Virus record (IMG/VR): IMGVR_UViG_3300014838_000003
Coordinates: 1-43,274 of that record
DNA length: 43,274 bases
Reading direction: 5' to 3' (one strand)
Source: a virus
In this document: piece after piece, positions 771 to 43,274 of the stretch
Layout of the letters: every line of letters starts with the position of its first letter
Position numbering within the stretch: the stretch's first letter is position 1
Notes under the pieces: generated by a model
Told to the model about the DNA's origin: nothing
What the model saw: the letters and a program-made list of their open reading frames with translations, nothing else
Databases searched by the model: none
Program-made: the position numbers and the translations under genes

Positions 771-1018
771 GTGCGAGAGGTATGAGGCCCACCAACTTCG
801 GCCCCCGGCAGCGAATCAGCCGCCCATCAGGGTGGAGCGTATACGACGATGAGGGGAACCTCATCGGTGACGTGCATGGCGGACGCGCCAGACAGTTCGA
901 CGCGGTGACGCTCAGCGGCAAATTCCTCGGAACCTTCGTCAGCCAGGGCGGGGCGGTCAGGGCTGTCCGACGGGAGGCAGGGGTGACCGACAACACCGAT
1001 TCTCATGCCCAAGACTGA
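767..1018 (+). CDS. Hypothetical protein, 83 aa
   Basis: GTG start at 767 overlaps the upstream stop (GTGA) and has GGAGGA at 755-760. The residues SGWSVYDDEGNLIGDVHGG and the following KFLGTF segment suggest a small beta-rich fold. The C-terminus ends TDNTDSHAQD, encoded by copy B of the start-associated repeat, and overlaps the start of the methyltransferase by 14 nt. I see no enzymatic motif. The function is unknown; as the methyltransferase's direct neighbour it may be co-expressed with it. Confidence 0.7.
   Translation: MSARGMRPTNFGPRQRISRPSGWSVYDDEGNLIGDVHGGRARQFDAVTLSGKFLGTFVSQGGAVRAVRREAGVTDNTDSHAQD
992..1013 (+). repeat. Start-associated repeat, copy B
   Basis: The core ACCGATTCTC (995-1004) runs directly into the ATG of the methyltransferase at 1005. 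It differs from copy A mainly where CAGA has become CATG, which creates the start codon. Confidence 0.8.
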
Positions 1019-1622
1019 GTACCGAACCATCGTCGCGGACCCGCCCTGGCAGCCCGCCCTGGGGGGAACGTGGGGAGCCCGGATCGACAAGGGAAGGGGC
1101 CAGCGGTTCTACCCGCTCATGTCTCTGGCCGAGATCACGGCCCTGCGAGTGCCCGCCGCCGAACAGGCCCACCTGTGGCTCTGGTGCCTCAGTCAGCACG
1201 TCGATTGGGGCTACGAGGTCGCCCGAGCTTGGGGGTTCGAGCCGGTCACTCTGCTGACGTGGTGCAAGCCCGGCCTGGGCGTCGGACGCTTCCGCTGCAA
1301 CACTGAGCACGTCCTGGTGGCCCGACGTGGGAGCCGCCACGGCAACCCATTCGGGCGGGGTGGACGCCACGCTCAGGCCACCGAGGGGACGTGGTTCGAG
1401 TGGCCGAGGGCAGAGCACTCTCGGAAGCCCGACGAGTTCTACGAGCTGGTAGAGCGCCTGTCACCGGCTCCCCGGCTGGAGATGTTCGCTCGCACCTACC
1501 GGGTCGGCTGGGACTGCTGGGGCAACGAGGTCGAGAGCGACATCGAGATCGCCGCTGATAACACCCAACGGAACACCGATTCTCAGACCCAGGAGCGCCG
1601 ATGCCTGAGCCGACCCCGTTGA
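1005..1622 (+). CDS. MT-A70 family N6-adenine methyltransferase
   Basis: This 205-residue protein carries DPPW at residues 12-15, the catalytic motif of MT-A70-type adenine N6-methyltransferases, right after a short beta strand (YRTIVADPPW). Further support is the WLWCLSQ strand, an ARAWGF helix, and a C-terminal block EHSRKPDEFYELVERLSP leading to LEMFAR, typical of the family. The expected reaction is transfer of a methyl group from S-adenosylmethionine to adenine N6 in phage DNA, which could mask restriction sites or alter regulation. No restriction endonuclease or specificity subunit is adjacent, so it looks like an orphan enzyme. The last 30 or so residues (from AADNTQ) read through a repeat copy and look like an appended, non-conserved tail. 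The end overlaps the next gene. Confidence 0.92.
   Translation: MPKTEYRTIVADPPWQPALGGTWGARIDKGRGQRFYPLMSLAEITALRVPAAEQAHLWLWCLSQHVDWGYEVARAWGFEPVTLLTWCKPGLGVGRFRCNTEHVLVARRGSRHGNPFGRGGRHAQATEGTWFEWPRAEHSRKPDEFYELVERLSPAPRLEMFARTYRVGWDCWGNEVESDIEIAADNTQRNTDSQTQERRCLSRPR
1555..1590 (+). repeat. Start-associated repeat, copy C
   Basis: Positions 1555-1584 match 1771-1800 at 27 of 30 bases. The core ACCGATTCTCAGACCC is followed by AGGAG and the ATG at 1601. Here the repeat is coding (tail of the methyltransferase gene). Confidence 0.88.
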
Positions 1623-2877: not shown

Positions 2878-3200
2878 CCGTCTGCCGTCACCCGGGCTGC
2901 GAGAACGAGGCGACCCAGCTCGCCTCGCGCGCCGGGGTCGTGCTCGCGGCGGTCTGCGCGGACCACCCCGAGGACTTCCGGCCGCTCACCGAGTACCACG
3001 ACCACCACTTAACCGTCGCGGAGCGCCTGCTGGTTGACAAGATCGAGGCGCTCGTCAAGTTCCGCACCACGCTCGCCAACGTCAAGCTCACCGACCTGAC
3101 CGTGAGCGACATGGCGATGGACATCGTCTCCGCGCTCTTCGGTCCCCACTGGCGGGGCACGGTGCGCGAGCATCTGGATGAGATCGAGGTGTTCCGGTGA
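2874..3200 (+). CDS. Zinc-finger-like protein, 108 aa
   Basis: GTG start at 2874 overlaps the upstream stop by 4 nt. The N-terminus has CRHPGC followed about 24 residues later by CADH, a C-x4-C ... C-x2-H zinc-binding pattern seen in small phage and actinobacterial DNA-associated proteins. The remaining 75 residues form helices (LTVAERLLVDKIEALVKFRTT and others) without enzymatic residues. It sits directly upstream of the Cas4-like nuclease with GTGA coupling, so it may be an accessory of the recombination or replication complex. That link is inferred from position. Confidence 0.75.
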   Translation: MTVCRHPGCENEATQLASRAGVVLAAVCADHPEDFRPLTEYHDHHLTVAERLLVDKIEALVKFRTTLANVKLTDLTVSDMAMDIVSALFGPHWRGTVREHLDEIEVFR

Positions 3201-4045
3201 GAATCCGCCAGGCTGCCGCTTGCGACGTTCGCTCCATTCTCGACGCCGCCTTCGCGGTGCGGGACACCGACCCCGGCTTCTTCGCCATGTGGCTGCGGGA
3301 CGCGCTGGCGAGCAGCGAGGAGCACGTCACCCCTCCGGCTGACGATTGGGTCCACTACGCCTCGGCCATCTCGGGATGCCTCCGGCGCAGCGTCTTCGAG
3401 CGCGACCCGGCTGTCGTTCCCGAGGAGTTGCGGGTCGAATCCCGCTCGACCTTCATCATCGGCGACCTCTACCACGCGCTCCTCCAGATGGGCCTCGCGG
3501 TCCACCCCGACTACGTCCTGCTCGCCCACGAGGTCGGCGGGCGCATCCAGGACGGGCGGGCGATGGCGACCCGGCTGTCGGCCCGCTGCGACGCCGTCTT
3601 CGAGTTCGAGGGCCACGTCGCCCTCATCGAGATCAAGACCGAAAGCCCGTTCGCCCCCAAGATGCGCCGCGCCGACGCCACCGCGGCGGGCCGCGACCAC
3701 ACCGCCCGCCCCGAGCACGTCGACCAGCTCACGGCGACGGCTTGGGTCCTGAGCTTCACGCACCCGCACCTGACGATCGGGAGCGGGTGGGTGGTCTACG
3801 TCAACAAGGCCGATGGGGACATCGACCAGCAGCAGGTCCCCATCGACGACGTTCACCGCATCGCGGCGCTCGTGAACGGCCGCGACCGGGCCTGGGAGGA
3901 CTTCACCTTCGAGGGCGATGGCGGGCTGCCCGAGCGGCTGAAGAGCTACCCCGGCGGGCTGTGCGCCCCCCGATCCACCACCGACCCCAGGGGGAAGTGG
4001 TGCCAATACCGCACCCACTGTTCTGAGGTGATCGACCGTGCCTGA
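3197..4045 (+). CDS. Cas4/RecB-like exonuclease with a probable Fe-S cluster
   Basis: This 282-residue protein matches the PD-(D/E)XK layout of Cas4/RecB-family nucleases. It has motif I GDLYH (89-93), a core Asp at about 132 (SARCDAVFEF), E145-x-K147 (LIEIKTE), and a QxxxxAW motif near 177-183. Four cysteines, C61 (SGCLRR) and C256, C269, C275 (C-terminal, WCQYRTHC), are placed as in Cas4 and AddB, where one N-terminal and three C-terminal Cys hold a 4Fe-4S cluster. It would degrade DNA ends to make single strands for annealing. The start is GTG at 3197, overlapping the previous stop. The gene immediately downstream encodes a RecT-like protein, giving an exonuclease/annealase pair like lambda Red. 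No CRISPR array or cas1/cas2 is nearby, so a CRISPR-adaptation role is unlikely. Confidence 0.88.
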   Translation: MRIRQAAACDVRSILDAAFAVRDTDPGFFAMWLRDALASSEEHVTPPADDWVHYASAISGCLRRSVFERDPAVVPEELRVESRSTFIIGDLYHALLQMGLAVHPDYVLLAHEVGGRIQDGRAMATRLSARCDAVFEFEGHVALIEIKTESPFAPKMRRADATAAGRDHTARPEHVDQLTATAWVLSFTHPHLTIGSGWVVYVNKADGDIDQQQVPIDDVHRIAALVNGRDRAWEDFTFEGDGGLPERLKSYPGGLCAPRSTTDPRGKWCQYRTHCSEVIDRA

Positions 4046-5291
4046 CCAGGAAATCATCGAGGCCCCGGCGCCGCGCGCGGGCGTGGTGGGCGAGGGCCTG
4101 GAGCGCCTCGTCCCGCAGGACATGGCCCAGCTCGCCTGGATGGCGAAGACGCTCGCGTCCAGCGGCATGTTCCTGAAGTCGCTGGCCCAGGGCAGGAACG
4201 TTCCGCTCAACGCGGCCGAGACGTTCGTGGTCATGCAGGAGGGTATAGGGCTCGGGCTGTCTCCGCTCCAGGCCCTCCGCGAGATCGCCGTGGTCGAGAG
4301 CCGCGGGCGCCTGACCACCATCCCCAGCGCGCGGGTGGTGAGCGGGCGCATCCAGGCCGACCCTCGGCTGGAGAGCTGGGAGGCGACCGGCGACGCCACC
4401 AGCTTCACCGTGAAGGCGAAGCGGAAGGGCAGGCCCGCGATCGAGGTGACCGTCTCGGTCGAGGAGTTCTCCCAGGCCGAGGTCAACCGCCACCTGGAGC
4501 ACCTGGAAGACTGGCTCTTCGCCCGCGCGGTGCGGCGCCTGGCCCGGCGCGGCTTCTCGGACATGCTGCTCGGCATCTACGTCGGCGGCGAGCCCGAGGT
4601 TGTGGACGCGGTCGCGGTCAACGTGGCCGCCTTGGAGCGCGATGCGGGGACGGACGGCGTCTATGGCCGTCACGACGACGGCGGCTCCTGGATTCTGTGC
4701 GGCGGCCCGAACGGCGGCGCCTACCTGCGCTGTGAGCGGTGCGGCGCGACCTCCCCGCCGCCCCAGGAAATCCGCGACGTCATGCGGGGACGCGCGGAGG
4801 AGTACCGCATCGAAGCCCCGGCGCCGACGCAGAGCCCCACCCAGCCGCCGCTGGAGGAGGGGGAGCGCCCAATCGCCCCTGCGGACCTGGAAGGCGTCGC
4901 CACGGCCGTCCCAGAGGCGCCGGAGGGCCTCCCCCCGATCGGCAACCCGGTCCCCGGGGTGCCCCACCCCATCGACGTTCCCGACATCGACCCCGAGAGG
5001 GGGGAGGAGGTGATGCCCGATCCAGACGCCATGGCGTCCAGACCCGATGCAACGGCGCCCCCGGCCGAGACCGCACAAGAGGCCGGGGGCGTACTGGACC
5101 GCAACGACGCCATCGCAAGGCTGATGGAGCGGATCGGGGAGATGCGCCACGGGCCCGCCGAGGTGAAGGCGGAGCTGAAGAACGCCCTGGCCCAGATGGG
5201 CTGGCAGGAGCGGACGCCGCTGGGCGGCTGGGTGGTTGCCCAGACCGACGAGGTCGTCCTCGACCTGGCGTTGAAGCTGGGGGTGGCGTGA
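4038..5291 (+). CDS. RecT-like single-strand annealing protein
   Basis: This is a 417-residue protein. Residues about 30-115 fit the RecT-type annealase pattern: MAKTLASSGMF, then VVMQEGIGLGLSPLQALREIAVVESRGRLT (GxGLGLxPxQAL...I.V..GR.t), then a strand/loop region and SVEEFSQAEV. Residues about 222-240 hold CGG and CERC, a small zinc-ribbon-like insert that is not a usual RecT feature. The C-terminal 150 residues are Pro/Ala-rich and probably flexible, ending in a folded helical segment. It should anneal complementary strands made by the upstream Cas4-like nuclease, in recombination or replication of the genome. Start is GTG at 4038, overlapping the nuclease gene by 8 nt. Confidence 0.78.
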   Translation: MPDQEIIEAPAPRAGVVGEGLERLVPQDMAQLAWMAKTLASSGMFLKSLAQGRNVPLNAAETFVVMQEGIGLGLSPLQALREIAVVESRGRLTTIPSARVVSGRIQADPRLESWEATGDATSFTVKAKRKGRPAIEVTVSVEEFSQAEVNRHLEHLEDWLFARAVRRLARRGFSDMLLGIYVGGEPEVVDAVAVNVAALERDAGTDGVYGRHDDGGSWILCGGPNGGAYLRCERCGATSPPPQEIRDVMRGRAEEYRIEAPAPTQSPTQPPLEEGERPIAPADLEGVATAVPEAPEGLPPIGNPVPGVPHPIDVPDIDPERGEEVMPDPDAMASRPDATAPPAETAQEAGGVLDRNDAIARLMERIGEMRHGPAEVKAELKNALAQMGWQERTPLGGWVVAQTDEVVLDLALKLGVA

Positions 5292-6018: not shown

Positions 6019-7977
6019 CTATGCCACCGTCACGAGCGTCAGCAAGACGTCGCCTTCCATGTCCGGGACGCCGTTGCCGGGGTCGCGCGTGAGCCCCGGA
6101 GGCGCGCCGTTCGAGGTGGTCCACTGGTAGTCCTGGAGGATCGCCTGCACTTGCGACACGCCGTCCGTCCCCGCCGGGTCCGGCACCCACAACGTCACCG
6201 ACCCGGCCGCTAGCCGGTAGGCGTTCACGATGTTGGCGAGAAGCTCCTGCCCGGTGACGCCCTGGGGGTCGGCCTGGCCCAGCGGGTTGCGACCCTGCTG
6301 ATCGCGGCGACAGGCGACGGTGACCGTGTAGACCGGCGCCAGAGTGGCGAGCACGGACCAGAGCTGGATGTCGGGCTGGCGCGCGCCCACGAGCGTCACC
6401 TGGAGCTGCACCGATTGGCCGATGGTCCCCTGCGGGAAGCAGCAGACCAGGCGATCGTTGGTGGGGGCGACGGCGACGGGGAGCGCGGTCCACGCCGCGT
6501 TCAGGGAGTTGAGACGGAAGCTGACCGTGATGGCAAGGGGGTTGAGGGTCGCGTTGTTCATGATGAACTCGACCGACGCGAACCGCTTGTTGGTCGAGGG
6601 GGTGTCGAAGTCGTAGAAGCTGGAGACGATGGTGCCGTCGCTGGACGACGCTCCGGCCGCGGGCTGGAGGATGTACCAGTTTGCGGTCCCATCGTGCTCG
6701 GCGATCGAGCCGCCGGGGCCAAGCGCGCAAGCGTAGTGCGTCCCGGTGGTGGACGCCGCCCCCGCGACCGGGTTGCCGATGTCGGAGACGGCGCCCGTGG
6801 TGAGGCGGTAGCGCTTGGTGTTGAGCCCCGGCCAAGAGAGGTAGAGCCAGCTCGCGTCCGAGGAGAGCTGACCATGAGCGGTTGCGCCCGCCCCTCCCGG
6901 CTGGAAGGCCGCGTCGAGCTGGGTGTAGTCGTCGAAGGTGGAGAGCGTCGACCCGCTCAATTCGTAGATGACCGGGTACATCGCACCCGTCGCGGTCGAC
7001 CCCCAGCACAGGATGTAGGTCACCCCATTGGCGGTCTCGATGTCGAGCGGGACCTCGTCGACGACCCCGATCAGGACGGCGTCGGTCCCGTTGAAGGTGT
7101 AAAGCTCGCCGGTGTGGGTGCCGAACACGAGGCCGTCGACGCCGCATCCGATGATGTCGATGGGGGATTCCAGGATGGGGCAGGTATACACCAGCACCCC
7201 TGCCGCGGGAAAGGGCGGGGCGAACTGGTAAATCTCGCAAGGGGTCACCCCGACCGTGGCGGGCCGGGCGTTGCATACGCACCATAGGGAGCCCGCGAAG
7301 TAGGCCAGGGACAAGACGCTGAGTTGGGAGGTCTCGACCTGGGAGATCGTGACGTATCGCTGGTCGCCGGAGAGGAGGGCGGCCTGGAAGACGCCTCCGG
7401 TGAGGGTCGCGAAGTACGTCTCCCCGCGGTTCAGACCGTGCGTGATGATGCTGGTGGGGGTGCCGGTGACGGTGGCCGGGAACGACAAGGGCGTCGTCTG
7501 GAACTTCTGAATCTCAGCGCCGCCGTCCAGGAACGCCATGAACGCCCCGCCGCCCCCGCCGGGCGACACGGAGATCGACTTGCCCTGCCCCGACAGCGCC
7601 ACCAGCGCCGACGCCGTCGTCTGCGAGGTGTAGTTGCCCGCGCACGTCAGGTGCCCGGGCTTGGAGGTGTCGACCTGTTGCGAGGAGTAATACTGGTTCG
7701 CGGTCGCGTAGACCACTTGACGCTCGCCGCCCGACCAGTCGCCCTGAGAGACGCTGGGGTAGCGGCCGTAGCGGTCGCTGCTCGACGGCGATGCGATCTG
7801 GACCAGGTGCGTCTCATCCTGGAGGTCGGTGCTCTGCTGCCAGCCCGTGTTGGGGGCCATCACATAGCCCATCATCTGAATGTCGCCGGTTGCGACGTCG
7901 AGGAAGCCCAGCGCCAGGTCGTAGGTGGGGCCGACCAGGGCCATCTTGTCGGGGGTGAGCGCGCCGATGTAGCTCAT
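6019..7977 (-). CDS. Large beta-rich virion protein, probable tail component
   Basis: This 652-residue protein is made of alternating short beta strands and Gly/Ser/Thr-rich turns, for example repeated segments of the type DGLVFGTHTGELYTFNGTD and TANWYILQP. This suggests a beta-propeller in the middle, followed by a C-terminal beta domain (LWSVLATLAPVYTVTVACRRD). Such proteins are common in short-tailed phage tails. It lies between the ClpX-like ATPase (ATGA overlap) and the terminal membrane-protein gene. I see no enzymatic motif. I call it a virion protein from composition, length and position; the exact tail role is unknown. Confidence 0.7.
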   Translation of the reverse strand: MSYIGALTPDKMALVGPTYDLALGFLDVATGDIQMMGYVMAPNTGWQQSTDLQDETHLVQIASPSSSDRYGRYPSVSQGDWSGGERQVVYATANQYYSSQQVDTSKPGHLTCAGNYTSQTTASALVALSGQGKSISVSPGGGGGAFMAFLDGGAEIQKFQTTPLSFPATVTGTPTSIITHGLNRGETYFATLTGGVFQAALLSGDQRYVTISQVETSQLSVLSLAYFAGSLWCVCNARPATVGVTPCEIYQFAPPFPAAGVLVYTCPILESPIDIIGCGVDGLVFGTHTGELYTFNGTDAVLIGVVDEVPLDIETANGVTYILCWGSTATGAMYPVIYELSGSTLSTFDDYTQLDAAFQPGGAGATAHGQLSSDASWLYLSWPGLNTKRYRLTTGAVSDIGNPVAGAASTTGTHYACALGPGGSIAEHDGTANWYILQPAAGASSSDGTIVSSFYDFDTPSTNKRFASVEFIMNNATLNPLAITVSFRLNSLNAAWTALPVAVAPTNDRLVCCFPQGTIGQSVQLQVTLVGARQPDIQLWSVLATLAPVYTVTVACRRDQQGRNPLGQADPQGVTGQELLANIVNAYRLAAGSVTLWVPDPAGTDGVSQVQAILQDYQWTTSNGAPPGLTRDPGNGVPDMEGDVLLTLVTVA

Positions 7978-9011
7978 CAGGCGGCCTCGGCCCGTTGCAG
8001 CCGTGCGCTCTTCGAGGCGACGGCGCGGGCGTCCAAGATCAGCTCGTCGCCGGGGCGGGCCTCGCGCCGTGGGCGCCAGAGCATGTCGGCGAGGATCGGT
8101 TCGAGGGCGCGGGCGCCAAGAGCCCGCTCCTGAGCCATGCCCGCAATGGTCATCATCGCCCCCTCGTCCACGCCGAGGGCGAGCCCCTCGTCGGCCATGC
8201 GCTCCACCCAGCGGGGTACGAGCTGCTCGCGCAGGATGCGAATGAGGTGGTCCACCTTCAGCGGCGGCAGGGTGAGGATGGTGGCGAAGCGGCCCATCAG
8301 CTCGGGGATGAAGCCGTACTCGATGAAGTCCTCCGGCGTGGCGGTCAGGTAGAGCCGCTCATCCCAGGGCTTCTTGTCCCACAGCGCGATGGTGTCGTTC
8401 AGCCCCACGAAGGCGCCCATGCCGACGTGCAGGACGTGGCTGGTCTGGAAGAGGATGCCGGGCTTGTCCTCGTCCTCGCGGATGTTGGCCTCAGTCCCCT
8501 CGACCAGCTTCAGCAGCTCGTACTGGAGAACCTTCCCGACCTCGCGCTCGCCGGGCACCGCGGTCTTGTTGGTGCGGAGCTTGTCCATCTCATCCATGAG
8601 CACGACACCCCACCGCTCGGCGCGGGGGAGGTGGTCACGCAGCGAGATGGGCCGACCCTGCGCGTTCTCCTCGCGCTGGGCCCGGGAGAGCAGCCCGAGA
8701 TACATGGTCACGAGGTCGCGACCGTGGTAGCCGACGTCGGAGAACTCGGTCACCGCGACCTCGCACCAGCAGACCGGGATGGCGCGCAGCAGGGCCTTCA
8801 CGGTGTAGGTCTTGCCGACCCCGGTGGGGCCGACGATGAGGATGTTGCCGCCGTGCCAGTCGCGGTCCATGACGGCGGCAACCATGTGGTCGCGCAGCGT
8901 CACCGCGAGGCGGTGCTTGAAGTCCTCCAGCCCCGCCACGGTGCGGTCCATCGACTTGATCATGGCCTCGACCGACGGGATGTCGTCGAGGCTCTGCGGC
9001 GGCGTGAACAT
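7977..9011 (-). CDS. ClpX-like AAA+ unfoldase in the virion gene block
   Basis: This 344-residue AAA+ protein aligns with the ClpX ATPase core. It has Walker A GPTGVGKT (61-68), pore-1 loop GYHG (94-97, compare GYVG in ClpX), Walker B VVLMDEMDK (136-144), the ELLKLVEGTE helix (165-174), sensor-1 region VLHVGMGAFVGL (193-204), the FIPELMGRF arginine-finger segment (234-242) and sensor-2 GAR (299-301). The N-terminal zinc domain of ClpX is missing, and I see no IGF-type ClpP-docking loop between about 205 and 228. It therefore probably unfolds or remodels a protein without ClpP, for example a virion or host factor. I chose ATG 9011, which overlaps the adaptor gene's stop (ATGA); a GTG at 9044 lies inside that gene. 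Confidence 0.9.
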   Translation of the reverse strand: MFTPPQSLDDIPSVEAMIKSMDRTVAGLEDFKHRLAVTLRDHMVAAVMDRDWHGGNILIVGPTGVGKTYTVKALLRAIPVCWCEVAVTEFSDVGYHGRDLVTMYLGLLSRAQREENAQGRPISLRDHLPRAERWGVVLMDEMDKLRTNKTAVPGEREVGKVLQYELLKLVEGTEANIREDEDKPGILFQTSHVLHVGMGAFVGLNDTIALWDKKPWDERLYLTATPEDFIEYGFIPELMGRFATILTLPPLKVDHLIRILREQLVPRWVERMADEGLALGVDEGAMMTIAGMAQERALGARALEPILADMLWRPRREARPGDELILDARAVASKSARLQRAEAA

Positions 9012-9898
9012 CAGACGTCCAGTGTGCTCTTGGGCCGCGACCACGGGATCGCGCGCTGGAGGTCGTTCCTGATCTGGGTCGCCCGGCTCATGTACCAGGC
9101 CGCCGTCTGCTGGGCGAACCCCGGCGGCTGCGCGTTCTGGTCGGCCTGGACGGTCTGGGAGGCCATGCGGGTGCGTGGGGTCTCCCCGAAGCCCTGGAGC
9201 TGGGCGGCGGCGTACCAGAGCACCACGTCCGCGGCGACGTCGTCGACGTCCGAGAGCGAGCGGTAGGGCGCCGTGTAGTTGACCTCGACGGTCGAGCCCG
9301 GCGTGAACATCTGGGAGCGAGCGATGGTGAGCGTGGTGCGCTCCCGGGTCCAGCCGGTCAGCGGCCGAAAGCGGTTGGTCGAGCTGGGGACCTCACGGAC
9401 CATTATCGACCGGATGTAGATGTCCGGGATATTGAAGTCGCTGGGCAGCGTGTAGTCCCATTGCATCGTTTGGAGCGTGATCGAGGTGTCCTGAGCCTCC
9501 CGGAAGCGGTAGGGGTACAGGAAGAGCAGGCCGCCGTAGAGGGCCTGGAGCATGTTGGAATCGCGCCAGCGGACCTGCCGCTTGTAGACGATCACGTTGG
9601 CCTGGCCGACCGGCGGGGCGGTGCCGAAAAGCAGCCAGCCGGTATTGCAGTCGACGTAGACGTTGCCCGCGCTGACCTCGTCGGGGTCGTAGACGATCGG
9701 CACCGTGAACCCGTTGGAGGTCACGACGAGCTGATCGTCGTCGTTGATCTTGACCTGAGTGCATTTCGCCTCGGTCGCGATGCCGTTCATGGAAAACTGC
9801 TCGACCGCCCGCTTGGGGTGGTCGTCGACCAGCTCGCGCAGCCGCTTCAGCCACCCCTGATCGTCGCGCCCGCTCTCTGGCCCCCACGGTCCACTCAT
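9011..9898 (-). CDS. Adaptor / head-tail connector-like virion protein
   Basis: The 295-residue protein contains MLQALYGGLLFLYPYRF (about 115-131), SDFNIPDIYIRSIMVRE, an arginine/beta segment WTRERTTLTI, and PGSTVEVNYTAPY. This order (helical tube start, a Leu-Pro strand, then a 'TL..PG..v.V.Y' strand pair, then a helical C-terminus) is shared by many phage adaptor or tail-completion proteins that sit under the portal. It is embedded between a tail glycosidase-like gene and the ClpX-like gene, with ATGA overlaps on both sides. A tail-tube or stopper protein is the alternative. Confidence 0.6.
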   Translation of the reverse strand: MSGPWGPESGRDDQGWLKRLRELVDDHPKRAVEQFSMNGIATEAKCTQVKINDDDQLVVTSNGFTVPIVYDPDEVSAGNVYVDCNTGWLLFGTAPPVGQANVIVYKRQVRWRDSNMLQALYGGLLFLYPYRFREAQDTSITLQTMQWDYTLPSDFNIPDIYIRSIMVREVPSSTNRFRPLTGWTRERTTLTIARSQMFTPGSTVEVNYTAPYRSLSDVDDVAADVVLWYAAAQLQGFGETPRTRMASQTVQADQNAQPPGFAQQTAAWYMSRATQIRNDLQRAIPWSRPKSTLDV

Positions 9899-36485: not shown

Positions 36486-36691
36486 AGTTCCCGCCCCGCG
36501 AGACCCTCACCGAGACGCTCTCGGGCAACCTGCGCGCCCACGTCGGGCGGGCGGCCCACGAGGACATCAGCGTCTTCCCGTGCATCCGCTGTCACACCCC
36601 CGTCAGCCGCCGGGCCAAGGGCTATTGGGGCTCCAGCCTGTGCCCGAAGTGCCAGCCCACCGTCTACCCAGAAGGGAAGCCCACCTTCTGA
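36482..36691 (+). CDS. Zinc-ribbon miniprotein, 69 aa
   Basis: GTG start overlapping the micro-protein stop. CIRC and CPKC (VFPCIRCHTPVSRRAKGYWGSSLCPKCQP) form a zinc ribbon in the C-terminal half; the N-terminal helix (TLTETLSGNLRAHVGRA) precedes it. It is the last gene of the plus-strand miniprotein operon. The downstream CTGACC/GGTCAG inverted repeat (36688-36720) lacks a T run and is weak as a terminator. Confidence 0.72.
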   Translation: MKFPPRETLTETLSGNLRAHVGRAAHEDISVFPCIRCHTPVSRRAKGYWGSSLCPKCQPTVYPEGKPTF

Positions 36692-37441
36692 CCAAATGCG
36701 TCTACCCCCTCAACGGTCAGCCCGACGAAGATACATGGGTGCCCCAGGCGCAGATGAGTGATTGCACCGCTTGGGACGTTGAGGTGCGGCTCTCTCATTC
36801 TCCACGCCTGCTCTGTTACCCGTCAACATTCCTTCAGCCGTCGTCGGAGGGCCCACTGGCCCGGAGATGACATCGAGGGGGTACGGACGTAGCCCCTCCC
36901 CGACACCTGCGGGTCACTCGGAGGCGTCAGGACGGAGCCACCCTGCACCCGCATCTCACCACGGACGTCAGTTGGCGGCTCCCGAGGAGCCTGACGACGA
37001 CCCCAGGTGACGCGCGCAGCTCCACCGGGACGTCCGGGGACACGATGAGTGGTGCGTATACGTCGATTCACGCACTCGGAAGGGGGGAACTCCTCTCTCA
37101 CCCCTGCGCGAGTGGAAACCCGGGGGTGTGGTGGGGGAGGGCGAAACGGGGTGCGCGGCGGGCTGGCTGCCCCGGACGCGGCGCCAAACGCCGCAGACGT
37201 TGGCCTCCGCGCGCGATGACGTGCGGCCATGCGCGGTCGGCTGGTGGTCGCTGCAACGCCCGGTGGTGACGTCGACGGGGCGGGAGGATCGGCCCGTCAG
37301 ACGACGCACGCGGCGCGATCCCGCCAAACCCGTGCCGCTGTGCGGGGCTGTGTGACACGGGATGAGGCGGGGCGGTCCCCTGGTACCTCCGCCATCCTCG
37401 CCGCGTCGGCTGGCCGCCGTGCGTCGCCCTAACGTGCGGGC
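36692..37441. other. Gene-poor region, largest in the genome
   Basis: About 750 nt lie between the end of the zinc-miniprotein operon and the end of the opposite MoxR/VWA operon. Several open frames exist on both strands, but none has a ribosome-binding site, a recognisable motif or a protein-like composition. Visible structure: hairpin GGCTCC-CGA-GGAGCC (36977-36991) with outer arms GTCA/TGAC; GCGGCG-CCAAA-CGCCGC (37178-37194); GTGCGT/ACGCAC (37052-37075) around a CGTATACG palindrome; GGGCC-CACT-GGCCC (36849-36862). No T run follows these. It may be an origin, packaging site or non-coding RNA. Confidence 0.55.
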
Positions 37442-37478
37442 AAAAGAGAACCGCCCCGACGCGGTGCCGGAGCGGTTC
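37442..37478 (-). terminator. Intrinsic terminator for the MoxR/VWA operon
   Basis: In minus-strand RNA GAACCGCUCCG (from 37478-37468) pairs with CGGGGCGGUUC (from 37458-37448) over 11 positions with one U-G wobble, loop of 9, then UCUUUU down to 37442. It lies 21 nt after the stop of the gene at 37499. A second GAACCGC copy (37494-37488) could compete for the same arm. Confidence 0.82.
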
Positions 37479-37498
37479 GATAGGTGCGGCGGTTCGGG

Positions 37499-37744
37499 TC
37501 AGCTCGGGACGATCAGCTCGCAGTCAACGCCCCGCAGCACCGCGATCAGCGCGCGCCGGTCCGGGTTGTCGCTGCCACCGGTCCGGAAGACGCGGAAGAC
37601 GTCGCCGCCATCCTCCCAACTCGCGACGATCTCCACGCCCAGCTCCCAACCCTGACACCGCGCGGCGGCCCCGGTGGATTTGTCGCCCAGCCGATGCACT
37701 GCCCGACCGCGGCGACTACTGATCTCCGCCAGGTACTGAGCCAT
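37499..37744 (-). CDS. Hypothetical protein, 81 aa
   Basis: ATG at 37744 behind GGAGGG. The sequence (AQYLAEISSRRGRAVHRLG; CQGWELGVEIVASWEDGGDVFRVF; RTGGSDNPDRRALIAVLRGVDCELIV) looks like a small alpha/beta fold. No catalytic motif. It is the last gene of the MoxR/VWA operon. It may be a dedicated partner of that system, based only on position. Confidence 0.7.
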   Translation of the reverse strand: MAQYLAEISSRRGRAVHRLGDKSTGAAARCQGWELGVEIVASWEDGGDVFRVFRTGGSDNPDRRALIAVLRGVDCELIVPS

Positions 37745-37972: not shown

Positions 37973-39583
37973 TCATGGCGGGGTGAGGAACCCGCGCCAC
38001 CCGCTACCGTTGGCGAACGTCCGAACCGCCCCCTTGGGGGTCCGGTGGTGACAGATGGCGAGCGCATCCTCGATCCGCCGGACCCTGACGATCTGGGCCG
38101 TCCGGGCGATGGCGAGAGCGGTTGCCCGGCCCTCCGGGGTTGGCGGCATCCCACCCATGCCGCCACCGATGCGGCCCGAGTGCGCCTCGCCATCCGACAA
38201 CCAGATGCGCGGCCCGCGCTGGCGGGCGAGCCATTCGAGAGCCTCCAGGTCGCTCATGTTGCAAGTGTCCCACTCATCCGCCACCGGTTCGGCCCAGCGG
38301 CCATCCCGGGCGAGGATGCAGATACGCGGGCAGCGACGTTCCGAGCCATCCGCGCCGGTCTCAATGACGGCCCCATGCGCGGCTACCGTAAGCCCGGGAA
38401 GCTCGCGCATGGCTGCGCTCAGAGCGTCCCAGTCCCATCCCATCGAGCCGGAGATGTCGATGGCCATGGCGCCGCCCGGCCGCGACGCGGCGAAGACGCA
38501 CCGGTCTCCGGCCCGCCAACGCTCGGGCCGGAGGACACTCGACCCGTCAATCCGGGTACCGCGGCGGAGCTTGACGGGGCGTGTGCCCACTCCGCGGCGG
38601 ATGTGGTCGTGGATCAACCCGGCCGGGTTGGCCTCCCGGGGCAGGAGACCTGCCAGCGGCGCACGTTCGTTCGGCTCGTCTGTTTGGTCCTCGGCCTCCT
38701 GACGCTCCGCCGCCGCCCGGCTCGCCGCCGTCCTCACGGCCGCCTCGATCCTCTCGGTTAGCTTCCGTTCGGCGTGTGGGTCGCTCCGCTTCCACGTGGC
38801 GGGCTCGGTGGCGCCCAGGGTGCCAGCCCGGGGCAACTCATCCGTCACAGCGAATTCCGGGACCTCCCCGCCGCATCCGGTGGGGGTGACGCGGGTTTCG
38901 CGGCGGCCCGGGGCCGCGCCATCGCCCGCTCCGCCGCCGCCCGGCTCGCCGCCCGTGCCCTCTCCGTCACCCTCGGACCGCTTGGCGGCCGGAGGGTTCG
39001 GCAGGGTTCGCCACCATTCCGCCGCAGCGGTCGCGGTCGCAGTGGTCGGGTCCGCAGCGATCCTCCCCACCCATGCCGCCGCATCCGCCGTCAGCGGCCC
39101 CATGACATCCGCGAGGCGCCGCAGCGCGGCGCCCAGCTCGGCCGGACAGCCGGGCCGCGGGGCAGGCTTGCCCGTCCGGCCGAGCGCGCCCGTCCCCGCT
39201 GTCAGTGCTACTTGCCAGAACCCCAAGACCGCATCCCGCGCGTCCTTCGTGGCGCGGGCCGCGGCCAGGATCGTTGGCGCGGCCCCGTCATGCCGACGGG
39301 TGACGTCTAGGTCCCCCACCCGCGCCAGGACGTCCATTCGGACCTCCTCAGCCATGCGGAGCGGGGGGTCACACGCCACAGGCGGAGTGTGGGCCGCGTG
39401 GAGTGCCTCGTGGAGCCGGATAGCCTCTTGTGGCGGCCCGGTCGGGTCGGGCAGGGTCAGCACCCGGTCGCGAGGGTTGGTGCTCCCATTGTTGGGGTCA
39501 GGGTTGCGCTCAACCCGCCAGGGTTCGCGCCGGTCGGCCCTCGCCCAGACTTCGGGGTGCGCTGCGACTACGTGACCTTTCAC
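37973..39583 (-). CDS. VWA protein with HEXXH metallopeptidase-like N-terminal domain
   Basis: This 536-residue protein starts at GTG 39583, overlapping the AAA+ stop (GTGA); a start at 39661 would overlap more. Near the N-terminus HEALH (58-62) is an HEXXH zinc motif, with EEVR (79-82) in the place where similar proteins have a third ligand (ED.R-type). A Gly/Pro/Ala-rich low-complexity part follows (about 215-280). The C-terminal VWA domain has a MIDAS: DISGS (376-380), DTCN (T440), and D464 in WLSDGE. It resembles CobT- and ViaA-type VWA proteins that work with MoxR ATPases. The ATPase would use the VWA domain to reach a substrate or a metal-dependent partner. No function is known for the phage forms. 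Confidence 0.85.
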   Translation of the reverse strand: MKGHVVAAHPEVWARADRREPWRVERNPDPNNGSTNPRDRVLTLPDPTGPPQEAIRLHEALHAAHTPPVACDPPLRMAEEVRMDVLARVGDLDVTRRHDGAAPTILAAARATKDARDAVLGFWQVALTAGTGALGRTGKPAPRPGCPAELGAALRRLADVMGPLTADAAAWVGRIAADPTTATATAAAEWWRTLPNPPAAKRSEGDGEGTGGEPGGGGAGDGAAPGRRETRVTPTGCGGEVPEFAVTDELPRAGTLGATEPATWKRSDPHAERKLTERIEAAVRTAASRAAAERQEAEDQTDEPNERAPLAGLLPREANPAGLIHDHIRRGVGTRPVKLRRGTRIDGSSVLRPERWRAGDRCVFAASRPGGAMAIDISGSMGWDWDALSAAMRELPGLTVAAHGAVIETGADGSERRCPRICILARDGRWAEPVADEWDTCNMSDLEALEWLARQRGPRIWLSDGEAHSGRIGGGMGGMPPTPEGRATALAIARTAQIVRVRRIEDALAICHHRTPKGAVRTFANGSGWRGFLTPP

Positions 39584-40605
39584 CTCGGCCTCGTCCCGCG
39601 CTTCTGGATGTCTTGGCCGCCATCCGCCCATTCGTGCCATTCGGCGAGACACGCGGAGCACTTCAGATGCGCTACCCCGCCCCGCTTGAAATCCGTTCGC
39701 TGCGCGATGTCGCAGTTGCCCGGGTCGGACCCGGTGCCGGTCTGCCCGCAGTCAGGGCACGTGAGCGTGTGGTCGTCGACGCCGACGACTACCACCGTGT
39801 CGGTGTCGCCGCTCGCCCGGTTGCGGGCGCTCTCACCCTTGATCATCTGCAAGCTCTCCAGCCATGCCCGCAGCTCGTCTCCTGTGTCCTCACCCATGAT
39901 CGCCAACGCCGCGGTCTCATCGTCGATCCCCGCCGCTCTCGATTGGCAGAAAGAAAGGCAATCGCGGTAACTCGGCCGGGGACCGATCTCCCATTCGGAT
40001 TGGGGGAGGGCCGCGTATGCCCGCTCAACCCAGACCCGAACGTCATGGTCAAGCCGGGCGAGTTGCCCGGCGCTCGGTCGCAGAACTGCAATCCGCATCG
40101 CGAACCGATCTCGCAGCGCGTCTGATAGGACGAGGCTACCCGCGTTTTGGGTGGCGATGCATCCAAACTCGGCCCGGGGCCGCAGGATGGTGCCAAGTGC
40201 AGTAGTGTCGGTCGCGATGCTCGGGTCATCCAATGCGTTGATGATGCGTTCGTGGCAGTCTGCCGATCCCCGGTGCAGCTCATTGACGATCCATAGGCCG
40301 CCGTGATGCCAGGCGCGCTGACCCGGCCCCTGAGCTTCCCGCATCCCGCCCGTCTCATTGGGGACGAGACCTCCCCAGATGCGGGATTCGAGGGTCTCGG
40401 ATGTGAGGGTCACCTGCCACCAGGGCCGAGTTTCGGTCCCGTTCAGACTGCCGAAGAGGGTAGACGCCCGGGCGATCTCGACCGCTAGCGCCGTCTTGCC
40501 GGTCCCAGGCGGCCCCACGAGCAGGACCCTCTCTCCGCCGTTCGGGAAGCGCTTGCGAATGAGATCGGGAACGGTGTCCCGCGGTATCTCTCGCGCTGTT
40601 GCCAT
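39580..40605 (-). CDS. MoxR/CobS-type AAA+ ATPase with C-terminal zinc ribbon
   Basis: This is a 341-residue protein. ATG 40605 is preceded by GGAGG at 7-8 nt. Walker A is GPPGTGKT (31-38), sensor 1 TQN (152-154), and the arginine-finger segment RDRF (165-168). The Walker B region reads GGLWIVNELHRGS with N108-E109, so the usual Asp is Asn, which may weaken ATP hydrolysis or change metal binding. The C-terminus (281-325) has CPDC and CSAC, a zinc ribbon absent from standard MoxR proteins. The stop overlaps the VWA start, giving a MoxR-VWA pair like CobS-CobT or RavA-ViaA. Confidence 0.87.
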   Translation of the reverse strand: MATAREIPRDTVPDLIRKRFPNGGERVLLVGPPGTGKTALAVEIARASTLFGSLNGTETRPWWQVTLTSETLESRIWGGLVPNETGGMREAQGPGQRAWHHGGLWIVNELHRGSADCHERIINALDDPSIATDTTALGTILRPRAEFGCIATQNAGSLVLSDALRDRFAMRIAVLRPSAGQLARLDHDVRVWVERAYAALPQSEWEIGPRPSYRDCLSFCQSRAAGIDDETAALAIMGEDTGDELRAWLESLQMIKGESARNRASGDTDTVVVVGVDDHTLTCPDCGQTGTGSDPGNCDIAQRTDFKRGGVAHLKCSACLAEWHEWADGGQDIQKRGTRPR

Positions 40606-40631
40606 TCGGTTTAGCCTCCGCTCGCCCCGGG

Positions 40632-40637
40632 GTATAA
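40632..40637 (-). promoter_or_regulatory. Possible -10 element of the MoxR operon
   Basis: TTATAC reads toward the MoxR gene 27 nt upstream of its start. No good -35 is visible at 16-18 nt; instead three TGTGAG sites lie just upstream, so the promoter may need an activator. Weak evidence. Confidence 0.35.
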
Positions 40638-40657
40638 CGGGGCCGAGAGGCAATCAT

Positions 40658-40695
40658 CTCACAGCCCGCCTCACATCTGCCACATCCGCCTCACA
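40658..40695 (-). repeat. TGTGAG(GCGG) direct repeats upstream of the MoxR gene
   Basis: Minus-strand TGTGAGGCGG occurs twice (40675-40666 and 40695-40686, 20 nt apart) and TGTGAG a third time (40663-40658). The same TGTGAG occurs on the other strand at 40905-40910 and 40938-40943, facing the opposite gene. Confidence 0.7.
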
Positions 40696-40711
40696 AGGAC
40701 GCACCCATGCT

Positions 40712-40822
40712 CGGCACGCCCATCCGACCCGACCATCCGTTCGGTACGGATGTTCGATGTAGGGCCGCCCGGTACGGATGTTCAGCACGTCCGTTCGGTA
40801 TGCCTGTTCGGCACGGATGTTC
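40712..40822. repeat. Iteron-like direct repeat array
   Basis: CGGTACGGATGTTC occurs exactly at 40742-40755 and 40770-40783, with one mismatch at 40809-40822, and more loosely at 40796-40809 and 40712-40725. Starts are 28, 26 and 13 nt apart. TCCGTTCGGTA occurs at 40736-40746 and 40790-40800. Candidate binding sites for a replication initiator or repressor. Confidence 0.85.
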
Positions 40823-40876
40823 GGTGCGGGGGAGGGCGAGGGCGAGCTTCTGAAACAGCCGTCGCCGGGGGTCTGC

Positions 40877-40907
40877 TTGACAAAATCTTCCGCTACGCCC
40901 ACACTGT
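40877..40907 (+). promoter_or_regulatory. Promoter candidate for the early operon
   Basis: TTGACA (40877-40882) with a weak -10, best read as CACACT (17-nt spacer) or CACTGT (19-nt). The -10 region overlaps the outer arm of the inverted repeat at 40900-40941, so a protein bound there would block it. Confidence 0.5.
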
Positions 40908-40941
40908 GAGAAGTTGCCTACGGTGAGCGTAGGCCAGTGTG
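40900..40941 (+). promoter_or_regulatory. Compound inverted repeat, operator or RNA hairpin
   Basis: Inner perfect stem GCCTACG (40916-40922) / CGTAGGC (40928-40934) with loop GTGAG. Outer arms CACACTG (40900-40906) / CAGTGTG (40935-40941), separated on the 5' side by 9 nt. The 3' arm runs into the ribosome-binding sequence GAGGTG (40941-40946) of the gene at 40954. Confidence 0.72.
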
Positions 40942-40953
40942 AGGTGAACCCAC

Positions 40954-42018
40954 ATGGTGACCGAGACCGGCCGGGAGTTTCTCCCGAATCTGCCCAAGGA
41001 CCTGCGCGCCGTGGCGCGGGCGGCCCTGGATCGCGGGTGCCGCCTGGGGCGAGCGTCCAGCGGCATCCATGCGTATCGGCTCTACTGCCCGGACGGCAGC
41101 TACCAGCCGATCAACGCCCACTCTCACACCACCCTCTCGCGCGGGTGGATCGACAACTTCAAGGGCAGCCTGCGGGCCGCGGGGGTCGACGTCGACGCCC
41201 CGATCCCGCCGTCGCAGGTGGCGCCGATGCCGAAGCTGACCCACAGGCAGCGGATCGTCGAGCTGCTGACCACGGCCACGAAGCCGCTCACCCGCCACGA
41301 GGTCGAGGCGGCGCTGGGGTCGACCTCGGGCGGCGTCTCCGAGGCGCTCCTGGAGCTGGCCTCCCGCGGCGTCATCGAGACCAACCGCATCCGCACTGCT
41401 GGGGCGCCCGCCCACACCTACCGCCTGCACCGGCCGACGGTCACCGGCAGCTTCCCCGACTTTCACCTCCTATCCGCGGAGGCGATCGAGCGGGCCCCCG
41501 AAGCCGTGACGGAAATGGTCGCCGTCCCCAGGTTGTCGGCGTCGCCCTCCCGCCCCGGGCTGCCAGCGGGCCGCATCCGCCTGAGCCCCGGGCGCCGCAC
41601 CGAGCTGATCCGCGGGTGGTTCGTCGCCCATCCCGGCGAGCAGGTTACCCAGAGGCAGCTCGCGACCTACCTGGGCCGGCCTGGCGCCAGTTGCGGCGAT
41701 GCCTACATCCAGCCCCTCATCAACGAGGGCGTGGTCGAGGAGTTGACCGGCCACAAGCGCGCGAGCAAGGTCTACCGCTCGGTGGACCCGCTGCGCCACG
41801 CCACCATCGAGGCGCGCAACGTCCCCACCTTCGAGGCGTCGACCGCGACCGTATCCGTGCCGGGGATGACGTTCTCCGAGGGGGTCGCGCCCGCGCCCAC
41901 CCTCGCCGACGGCGCCCGTAGCCGCTACCTGGAGCTGCTCCTGAAGGCCGCAGAAACGGCCCCGAACGCCGACACCTTCGACCGCATCGAGCGCATCCTG
42001 GGAGGACCCAATGTCTGA
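40954..42018 (+). CDS. DNA-binding protein with HicA-like domain and two winged helices
   Basis: This 354-residue protein starts at ATG 40954 behind GAGGTG. Residues about 15-78 (LRAVARAALDRGCRLGRASSGIHAYRLYCPDG, then LSRGWIDNFKGSLRAAGV) fit the small alpha/beta fold of HicA-like RNA-binding domains. Residues about 95-160 (HRQRIVELLTTATKPLTRHEVEAALGSTSGGVSEALLELASRGVI) and 208-278 (LIRGWFVAHPGEQVTQRQLATYLGRPGAS) each look like a winged HTH. It lies beside iteron-like repeats and an inverted repeat, so it may be a repressor or a Rep-type initiator that controls its own gene. The HicA part lacks a visible catalytic His consensus, so toxicity is unlikely to be assumed. Confidence 0.7.
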   Translation: MVTETGREFLPNLPKDLRAVARAALDRGCRLGRASSGIHAYRLYCPDGSYQPINAHSHTTLSRGWIDNFKGSLRAAGVDVDAPIPPSQVAPMPKLTHRQRIVELLTTATKPLTRHEVEAALGSTSGGVSEALLELASRGVIETNRIRTAGAPAHTYRLHRPTVTGSFPDFHLLSAEAIERAPEAVTEMVAVPRLSASPSRPGLPAGRIRLSPGRRTELIRGWFVAHPGEQVTQRQLATYLGRPGASCGDAYIQPLINEGVVEELTGHKRASKVYRSVDPLRHATIEARNVPTFEASTATVSVPGMTFSEGVAPAPTLADGARSRYLELLLKAAETAPNADTFDRIERILGGPNV

Positions 42019-42220: not shown

Positions 42221-42440
42221 CCACGTCTCCGCCACCGTCTCCGCCACCGAGCACCGCGCCATCGCGACGCGCGTCTGCCTGGAGGCCCGCGAGCGGCTCC
42301 GGTTCGCCGAGAGCCACATGCGGGTCGTGGACAGCGACCAGGCGCGCGAAATCTGCCGCCAGCTCATCGAGGCCGTCCGCGTCGTGGACGTGCCCCTGCG
42401 GGGCCTGGAGGACCACAAGCTGCCGAAGGTGGTCAAGTGA
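42213..42440 (+). CDS. Hypothetical helical protein, 75 aa
   Basis: Overlaps both neighbours (start inside the previous gene, stop overlapping the next GTG). The sequence SATEHRAIATRVCLEARERLRFAESHM and SDQAREICRQLIEAVRVVDVPLRGL predicts two or three helices with a Leu/Val core. No motif. Could be a small DNA- or protein-binding helical bundle. Confidence 0.65.
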   Translation: MPDHVSATVSATEHRAIATRVCLEARERLRFAESHMRVVDSDQAREICRQLIEAVRVVDVPLRGLEDHKLPKVVK

Positions 42441-42652
42441 CCCTCTCGCCCGCCCAGAGCCGCGTCTACCACGCCCTGCGTCGCCTGAGCGACGACACCG
42501 GCTTCCCGCCGACCATCCAGGAGGTCGCCCGCGCCGCGAACGTGAGTTTGGGGTACACCTACACCACGCTGCGCCTGCTGGCCGCCGAGGGGTGGATCAG
42601 GAGCCGCGGCGGGAAGTACCTGCCCATCGACCTGACCGGAGACGAGAAGTGA
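42437..42652 (+). CDS. LexA-type winged helix DNA-binding protein, 71 aa
   Basis: The whole protein is a LexA N-terminal-like winged helix: LSPAQSRVYHALRRLSDDTGFPPTIQEVARAANVSLGYTYTTLRLLAAEGWIRSRGGKYLPI, with the G.PPT..E.A.A......T...L..L...G.I.R pattern. The peptidase half of LexA is absent. It may bind operators in phage or host DNA without self-cleavage. GTG start at 42437 overlaps the previous stop. Confidence 0.85.
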   Translation: MTLSPAQSRVYHALRRLSDDTGFPPTIQEVARAANVSLGYTYTTLRLLAAEGWIRSRGGKYLPIDLTGDEK

Positions 42653-43108: not shown

Positions 43109-43274
43109 TCGTGGCGGTGGTCCACCATCGCCACGTGGGCGGCGACACGCGCGGCGCGCCGGTCGGGAATGGTGACCCTGCGAGCCATCGCTGCGGCGGG
43201 ATGGGACTTACGCAACGCGGTAGAGGCGGAGCGGTTGGCATGGGTGGCCATCGGCCAGTTGGACCCGCCAGACG
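43097..43274 (+). CDS. Small protein of unknown function, 5' part (continues at position 93)
   Basis: ATG at 43097 overlaps the previous stop (TAATG) inside repeat copy G. The N-terminus is MSVKSWRWSTIATWAATRAARRSG. The frame runs to the window end and, on the circle, through the bases from 93 to TAA 197-199, for 94 residues in total. It begins MSVK like the gene at 199 because both share the repeat. Confidence 0.7.
   Translation, partial: MSVKSWRWSTIATWAATRAARRSGMVTLRAIAAAGWDLRNAVEAERLAWVAIGQLDPPD
43183..43274. repeat. Terminal direct repeat, right copy
   Basis: Identical to positions 1-92. One copy should be removed to represent the 43,182-bp circle. Confidence 0.97.

Follow-up and report, generated by a model that had tools for sequence, protein, structure and literature searches.

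In phage 186, the early control region between the promoters pR and pL carries seven direct repeats, which are bound by the small cooperative regulator Apl (PMC7498355). These repeats are spaced by 10-11 bp, and the two promoters are face to face. Phage GIL01 provides a different example. Its gp6 protein, which has a LexA domain only, is a proven transcription activator, and it acts at a late promoter via one palindrome, GaCACAC GTGTGaC (PMC6182141). Direct repeats are also found in iteron plasmids. These have winged-helix Rep proteins and an unwinding element, frequently together with DnaA boxes, and their Rep iterons are typically 17-22 bp long (PMC4980987).

The DNA analysed here (hereafter the window) is the record of a whole virus, 43,274 bp long with 68% GC. 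Since its ends share a 92-bp direct terminal repeat (1-92 = 43183-43274), the genome is most likely complete and circular or permuted, with a length of ~43,182 bp. Capsid, terminase and endolysin-like proteins are among its products; the source is a tailed phage, and most of its proteins are without any match. The region 40606-40953 splits two outward-pointing gene sets, whose relevant members are as follows.

37973..39661, minus strand: P0003, probable VWA-type partner of P0002; a 562-aa frame overlapping P0002, with a DISGSM motif in the translation
39580..40605, minus strand: P0002, AAA_5 (CobS/MoxR-like) ATPase, first gene of the leftward unit (PF07728, 4.8e-12; phrog_249, phrog_16448)
40954..42018, plus strand: P0001, 354 aa; predicted N-terminal alpha-beta3-alpha region, candidate winged helix 1 at residues ~92-160, linker, likely winged helix 2 at ~208-285
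42437..42652, plus strand: P0005, 71 aa; LexA DNA-binding domain alone, without a peptidase/dimerisation domain
1005-1622, plus strand: MT-A70 methylase, in the rightward early operon across the circular join
3197-4045, plus strand: Cas4-like exonuclease, in the same operon across the join
4038-5291, plus strand: RecT-like annealing protein, in the same operon across the join

In the rightward early operon, P0001 is followed by small frames, P0005 and then the genes past the circular join. The original prediction placed repeats and an inverted repeat in one 348-bp divergent region upstream of the 40954 gene, a placement that was borne out, and read them as a plasmid-like module for replication or control, with a repressor having several operators as the main alternative. 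The control half of that reading fits the layout observed, and so does the alternative. We consider that the region is probably a divergent early-promoter control region and not an origin; its repeat array would be the operator of a phage winged-helix regulator that binds cooperatively.

Relatives were sought among phages and plasmids, by DNA and by protein, and in viral and genome contigs. The queries were the regulator, the ATPase, the terminase, the capsid, the RecT-like and Cas4-like proteins, the methylase or the repeat, and none of the searches found a relative that shares the region. In the phage collection, no record matches the end of the genome that holds the region by DNA, and only the capsid and the ATPase among the proteins tried have distant matches. 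Two contigs have an exact 18-bp repeat match; they show no cluster, and their number is about what chance gives. The phage is without close relatives in the searched collections, and the region is unusual mainly for that.

The 13-bp array

Three near-exact copies and two weaker ones of a 14-bp repeat had been noticed, and all five are present. CGGTACGGATGTTC has two exact copies, at 40742 and 40770, and a third, at 40809, with one mismatch; the weaker copies, each with 3 mismatches, are direct at 40796 and inverted at 40731. When up to 3 mismatches are allowed, CGGTACGGATGTTC has 11 matches in the window against 3.55 expected, a count reached in 0/100 shuffles, and both exact copies as well as the 1-mismatch copy fall within 40606-40953. 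The best three-copy mismatch sum is 1, whereas the minimum in 1000 dinucleotide shuffles was 4 (0/1000 reach 1), and by three-copy similarity the region ranks best among 370 segments of 348 bp in the genome. Tandem Repeats Finder reports 6.8 copies of the unit GTTCGGTACGGAT with period 13 at 40739-40829. The repeat unit is thus better read as 13 bp than as 14 bp, and the 14-bp repeats are part of a longer, weaker 13-bp array.

40709..40831, plus strand: operator-like array, period 13 bp, 9-10 degenerate units with consensus GTTCGGTACGGAT (Tandem Repeats Finder, unit scan and shuffle tests; limits set by unit scan and by eye)
40709, 40722 (inverted), 40735 (inverted), 40739, 40752 (poor), 40767, 40780, 40793, 40806 and 40819: starts of the array units, the last five spaced at exact 13-bp steps
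40730..40756: imperfect palindrome CGACCATCCGT-TCGGT-ACGGATGTTCG at the left end of the array, with arms CATCCGT/ACGGATG (inverted-repeat search)

Could such an array be a chance or low-complexity product without function? The base composition of the genome would favour this, and coding repeats of similar score do occur elsewhere in it. But the repeat triplet, the nested inverted repeat and the TGTGAG cluster described below all exceed shuffles and share one intergenic region, so that we regard a functionless array as very unlikely.

A recombination site, where an excisionase-like protein would bind the array near an attachment site, is if anything still less probable. Excisionases do bind tandem direct repeats (PMC7498355). 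However, no tyrosine or serine recombinase was found in the genome (PF00589, PF00239), and this candidate was dropped with no integrase found. A step of 10-11 bp is usual for direct repeats with head-to-tail binding, against 13 bp here.

The same features separate the array from that of phage 186 (PMC7498355). The two are alike in having tandem direct-repeat operators in an early control region, seven in 186 and 9-10 degenerate ones here, and cooperative binding by a small regulator is proposed here by analogy with Apl. In contrast to 186, the sites here are predicted, the units are 13 bp long and the putative promoters are back to back. With its 13-bp spacing, and with no integrase found, the array does not appear to belong to the Apl class.

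The 40954 protein and the comparison with iteron origins

Two winged helices had been assigned to P0001. The first one stood, though weakly supported: residues ~92-160 match TrmB, MarR and GntR, all below cut-off, and the matches of the protein as a whole are weak and to HTH regulators only. For the second, residues ~208-285 show a three-helix pattern in a model of moderate confidence, and no significant sequence or fold match was obtained for this region; a winged helix is likely there from the model but likewise weakly supported. Fold searches with P0001 gave no significant match. The N-terminus has the predicted alpha-beta3-alpha order known from HicA and is possibly HicA-like, although PF07927 (HicA) did not match it at E 10.

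If P0001 were a host-dependent initiator, the repeats would be its iterons and the inverted repeat would serve to repress its own gene. The layout indeed resembles that of F or R6K: repeats come first, then a promoter with an inverted repeat, and then the gene of a protein in which two winged helices are probable. In iteron origins with RepE/pi-type initiators, the gene for such a protein is likewise preceded by direct repeats and an inverted repeat (PMC4980987). The locus departs from them in the length of its unit, in DnaA boxes, in the AT-rich element and in the family of its protein. The unit is 13 bp and not 17-22 bp. No DnaA box is present in the region at <=1 mismatch. DnaA boxes are not required in all iteron replicons. 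The most AT-rich 100 bp reach 43% AT, a value exceeded at 12 other places in the genome, and the minimum 60-bp GC in the region is 0.52. PF01051 (Rep_3) is absent in a six-frame search at E 10. The arms of the inverted repeat have only TACG in common with the array unit, and P0001 has an extra N-terminal domain as well as a linker of ~45-50 residues between its winged-helix regions, as predicted in models of low confidence. In RepE/pi-type initiators the two winged helices are tightly packed. Together these tests lower the origin claim, and we regard an iteron origin as improbable; an origin of another kind may be present.

GC skew gives the same picture with less weight. Detrended skew has its turning points at ~6.2 and 35.5 kb and none at 40.7 kb, but it partly tracks gene orientation and is therefore weak evidence on the origin. 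Near the skew maximum at 35.5 kb, ~800 bp (36690-37500) are without convincing coding frames and may have other functions, in regulation or as an origin.

It had also been pointed out that no DNA polymerase, helicase or primase is recognisable in this genome. This part stood: DnaB, polymerase A, prim-pol and D5 were searched in the genome and none was detected, which leaves room for host-dependent initiation and speaks for the origin reading. As evidence for an origin, the gap is weak, because the phage does have RecT-like and Cas4-like genes and because the majority of its proteins match nothing. On the whole, the origin reading is weakened. A long shot is that a two-winged-helix regulator reads two 13-bp units (26 bp) at a time in the tandem array, and that it acts both on early transcription, as a switch, and on replication, by recruiting host replication proteins. 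If true, such a combined operator and origin would be unlike known iteron replicons, and would belong to a phage with recombination genes and no detectable replisome gene.

LexA-like sites and the LexA-domain protein

P0005 is the other likely DNA-binding protein encoded just downstream of the array. It scores 27.9 bits against PF01726, above the cut-off of 23.7, and has weak LexA matches in PDB. Array units resemble LexA boxes as well, of which the clearest case is the following.

40743..40756, plus strand: GGTACGGATGTTCG, an exact match to RGTACNNNDGTWCB, with 2 mismatches to CGAACN4GTTCG

RGTACNNNDGTWCB is the cyanobacterial LexA-box consensus (PMC3091678). With <=1 mismatch it has four sites, where the genome rate would give 0.11, with the limit that a cyanobacterial consensus may not be that of the host. 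CGAACN4GTTCG, which may not be the host's box either, has five sites in the region at <=2 mismatches, and five were reached in 0/2000 shuffles. At this spacing the half-site CGAAC takes rank 1 of all 1024 half-sites, but over all spacings other pairs of half-site and spacing score equal to or above it. Both counts are inflated, because the copies are repeats of one sequence and not independent. The right half-site is good, and the left one is poor in every copy. Alpha-proteobacterial LexA boxes (GTTCN7GTTC) are absent. The resemblance of the array units to Gram-positive or cyanobacterial boxes is a lead only.

According to an alternative that connects these data, the array would be a set of LexA-type operators through which host LexA, or P0005 acting on half-sites, represses or activates the early promoter, with a link to DNA damage as in GIL01. 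It draws on the site counts given above, on the rank of CGAAC, and on the LexA-domain gene in the same operon. It is weakened by the poor left half-sites, the inflated counts and the competing pairs, and the boxes scored may differ from that of the host. The recognition helix of P0005 presumably differs from that of Gram-positive LexA. We consider LexA-type operators unlikely, yet less so than an iteron origin.

In GIL01, gp6 sets a precedent for this kind of protein (PMC6182141); P0005 is also a phage LexA DNA-binding domain without the peptidase. CACA/TGTG half-sites are present here too. They occur in CACACTGTG at 40900-40908, which has one base less between the half-sites than the GIL01 palindrome. 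Like the LexA-box fits, these GIL01-like half-sites are leads, taken by analogy. If confirmed, a LexA-domain-only protein beside LexA-like sites would carry the GIL01 case over to a tailed phage of high GC.

Sites around the putative promoters and a proposed control of early transcription

Further sites are located on both sides of the array, near the putative promoters. We infer the promoter positions from the sequence.

40631..40636, minus strand: possible leftward -10 TATACC, read from sequence, with no good -35
40658..40695, minus strand: TGTGAG, three inverted copies (40658, 40670, 40690) and a weaker one, near the possible leftward promoter
40877..40905, plus strand: possible rightward promoter, TTGACA, 17 nt, CACACT, read from sequence, with a weak -10
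40900..40941: nested inverted repeat CACACTG...GCCTACG-GTGAG-CGTAGGC-CAGTGTG, covering the likely -10, the start site and the edge of the ribosome-binding site
40941..40947, plus strand: Shine-Dalgarno GAGGTGA of the 40954 gene, read from sequence

The compound inverted repeat that had been described is real. Its outer arms, CACACTG (40900-40906) and CAGTGTG (40935-40941), enclose the inner arms GCCTACG (40916-40922) and CGTAGGC (40928-40934), and nested perfect arms of this kind arose in 3/1000 shuffles. It overlaps the possible -10 and borders directly on the Shine-Dalgarno of the 40954 gene. The repeat folds well as RNA (z -3.1), and no Rfam family matches it. An RNA switch was considered and rejected: with a transcription start near 40912, the outer left arm would be untranscribed and the inner hairpin alone would be left. 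A DNA-level site is preferred for this reason.

The second motif, TGTGAG/CTCACA, was absent from the original prediction. It has five copies outside the array, and 5 were reached in 2/1000 shuffles. In Apl/Xis-type arrays the tandem repeats follow each other at about one helix turn; the copies on the leftward side, together with the weaker one, are ~9-12 bp apart, but they are few. Two others stand beside the possible rightward promoter; one of these, at 40938, falls partly within the ribosome-binding site, which could be the sole reason for its presence.

In the control-region reading that we prefer, the 13-bp array would be bound by P0001 most likely, or otherwise by P0005. Cooperative binding would set transcription of both the rightward early operon and the leftward unit with its CobS/CobT-like genes; the sign of this regulation could be either. 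The nested inverted repeat, lying over the -10, the start and the edge of the ribosome-binding site, would act as a second, proximal site for autoregulation of the 40954 gene, and the TGTGAG copies near both promoters as a third element, probably for another regulator. In favour of the control region, the array is significant and confined to the intergenic region between two divergent units, with possible promoters on both sides; genes for two likely DNA-binding proteins follow shortly downstream; the hallmarks of a Rep origin are absent; and there are precedents both for tandem operators between early promoters that are read by head-to-tail regulators, as in phage 186, and for a LexA-domain-only activator, as in GIL01. 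Against it, a consensus promoter scan detected neither the leftward nor the rightward promoter. Some 45 bp separate the array from the possible rightward -35 further downstream, and it overlaps neither core promoter, so that simple steric repression is not obvious. The 13-bp step, too, departs from the 10-11 bp usual for head-to-tail binding, and the searches for relatives found none. The region is likely the early switch of a phage lineage without close relatives in the searched collections, with two candidate regulators and three sets of sites.

The leftward gene pair that would be under this control resembles the pairing of a CobS/MoxR-type ATPase with a CobT-like VWA partner. Of the pair here, the ATPase alone has a family match (phrog_249), whereas the VWA partner was read from its motif; P0003 gave no family match and is probably CobT-like, judged by position and motif alone. 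Its third-position GC, 0.81, is lower than that of most genes in the genome. Among the leftward genes there is also an AAA_2/ClpB-like ATPase at 7977-9044, matching phrog_4339 (function unknown). On the rightward side, the Cas4-like exonuclease gene adjoins that of the RecT-like annealing protein (3197-5291), which suggests that the two are a recombination pair.
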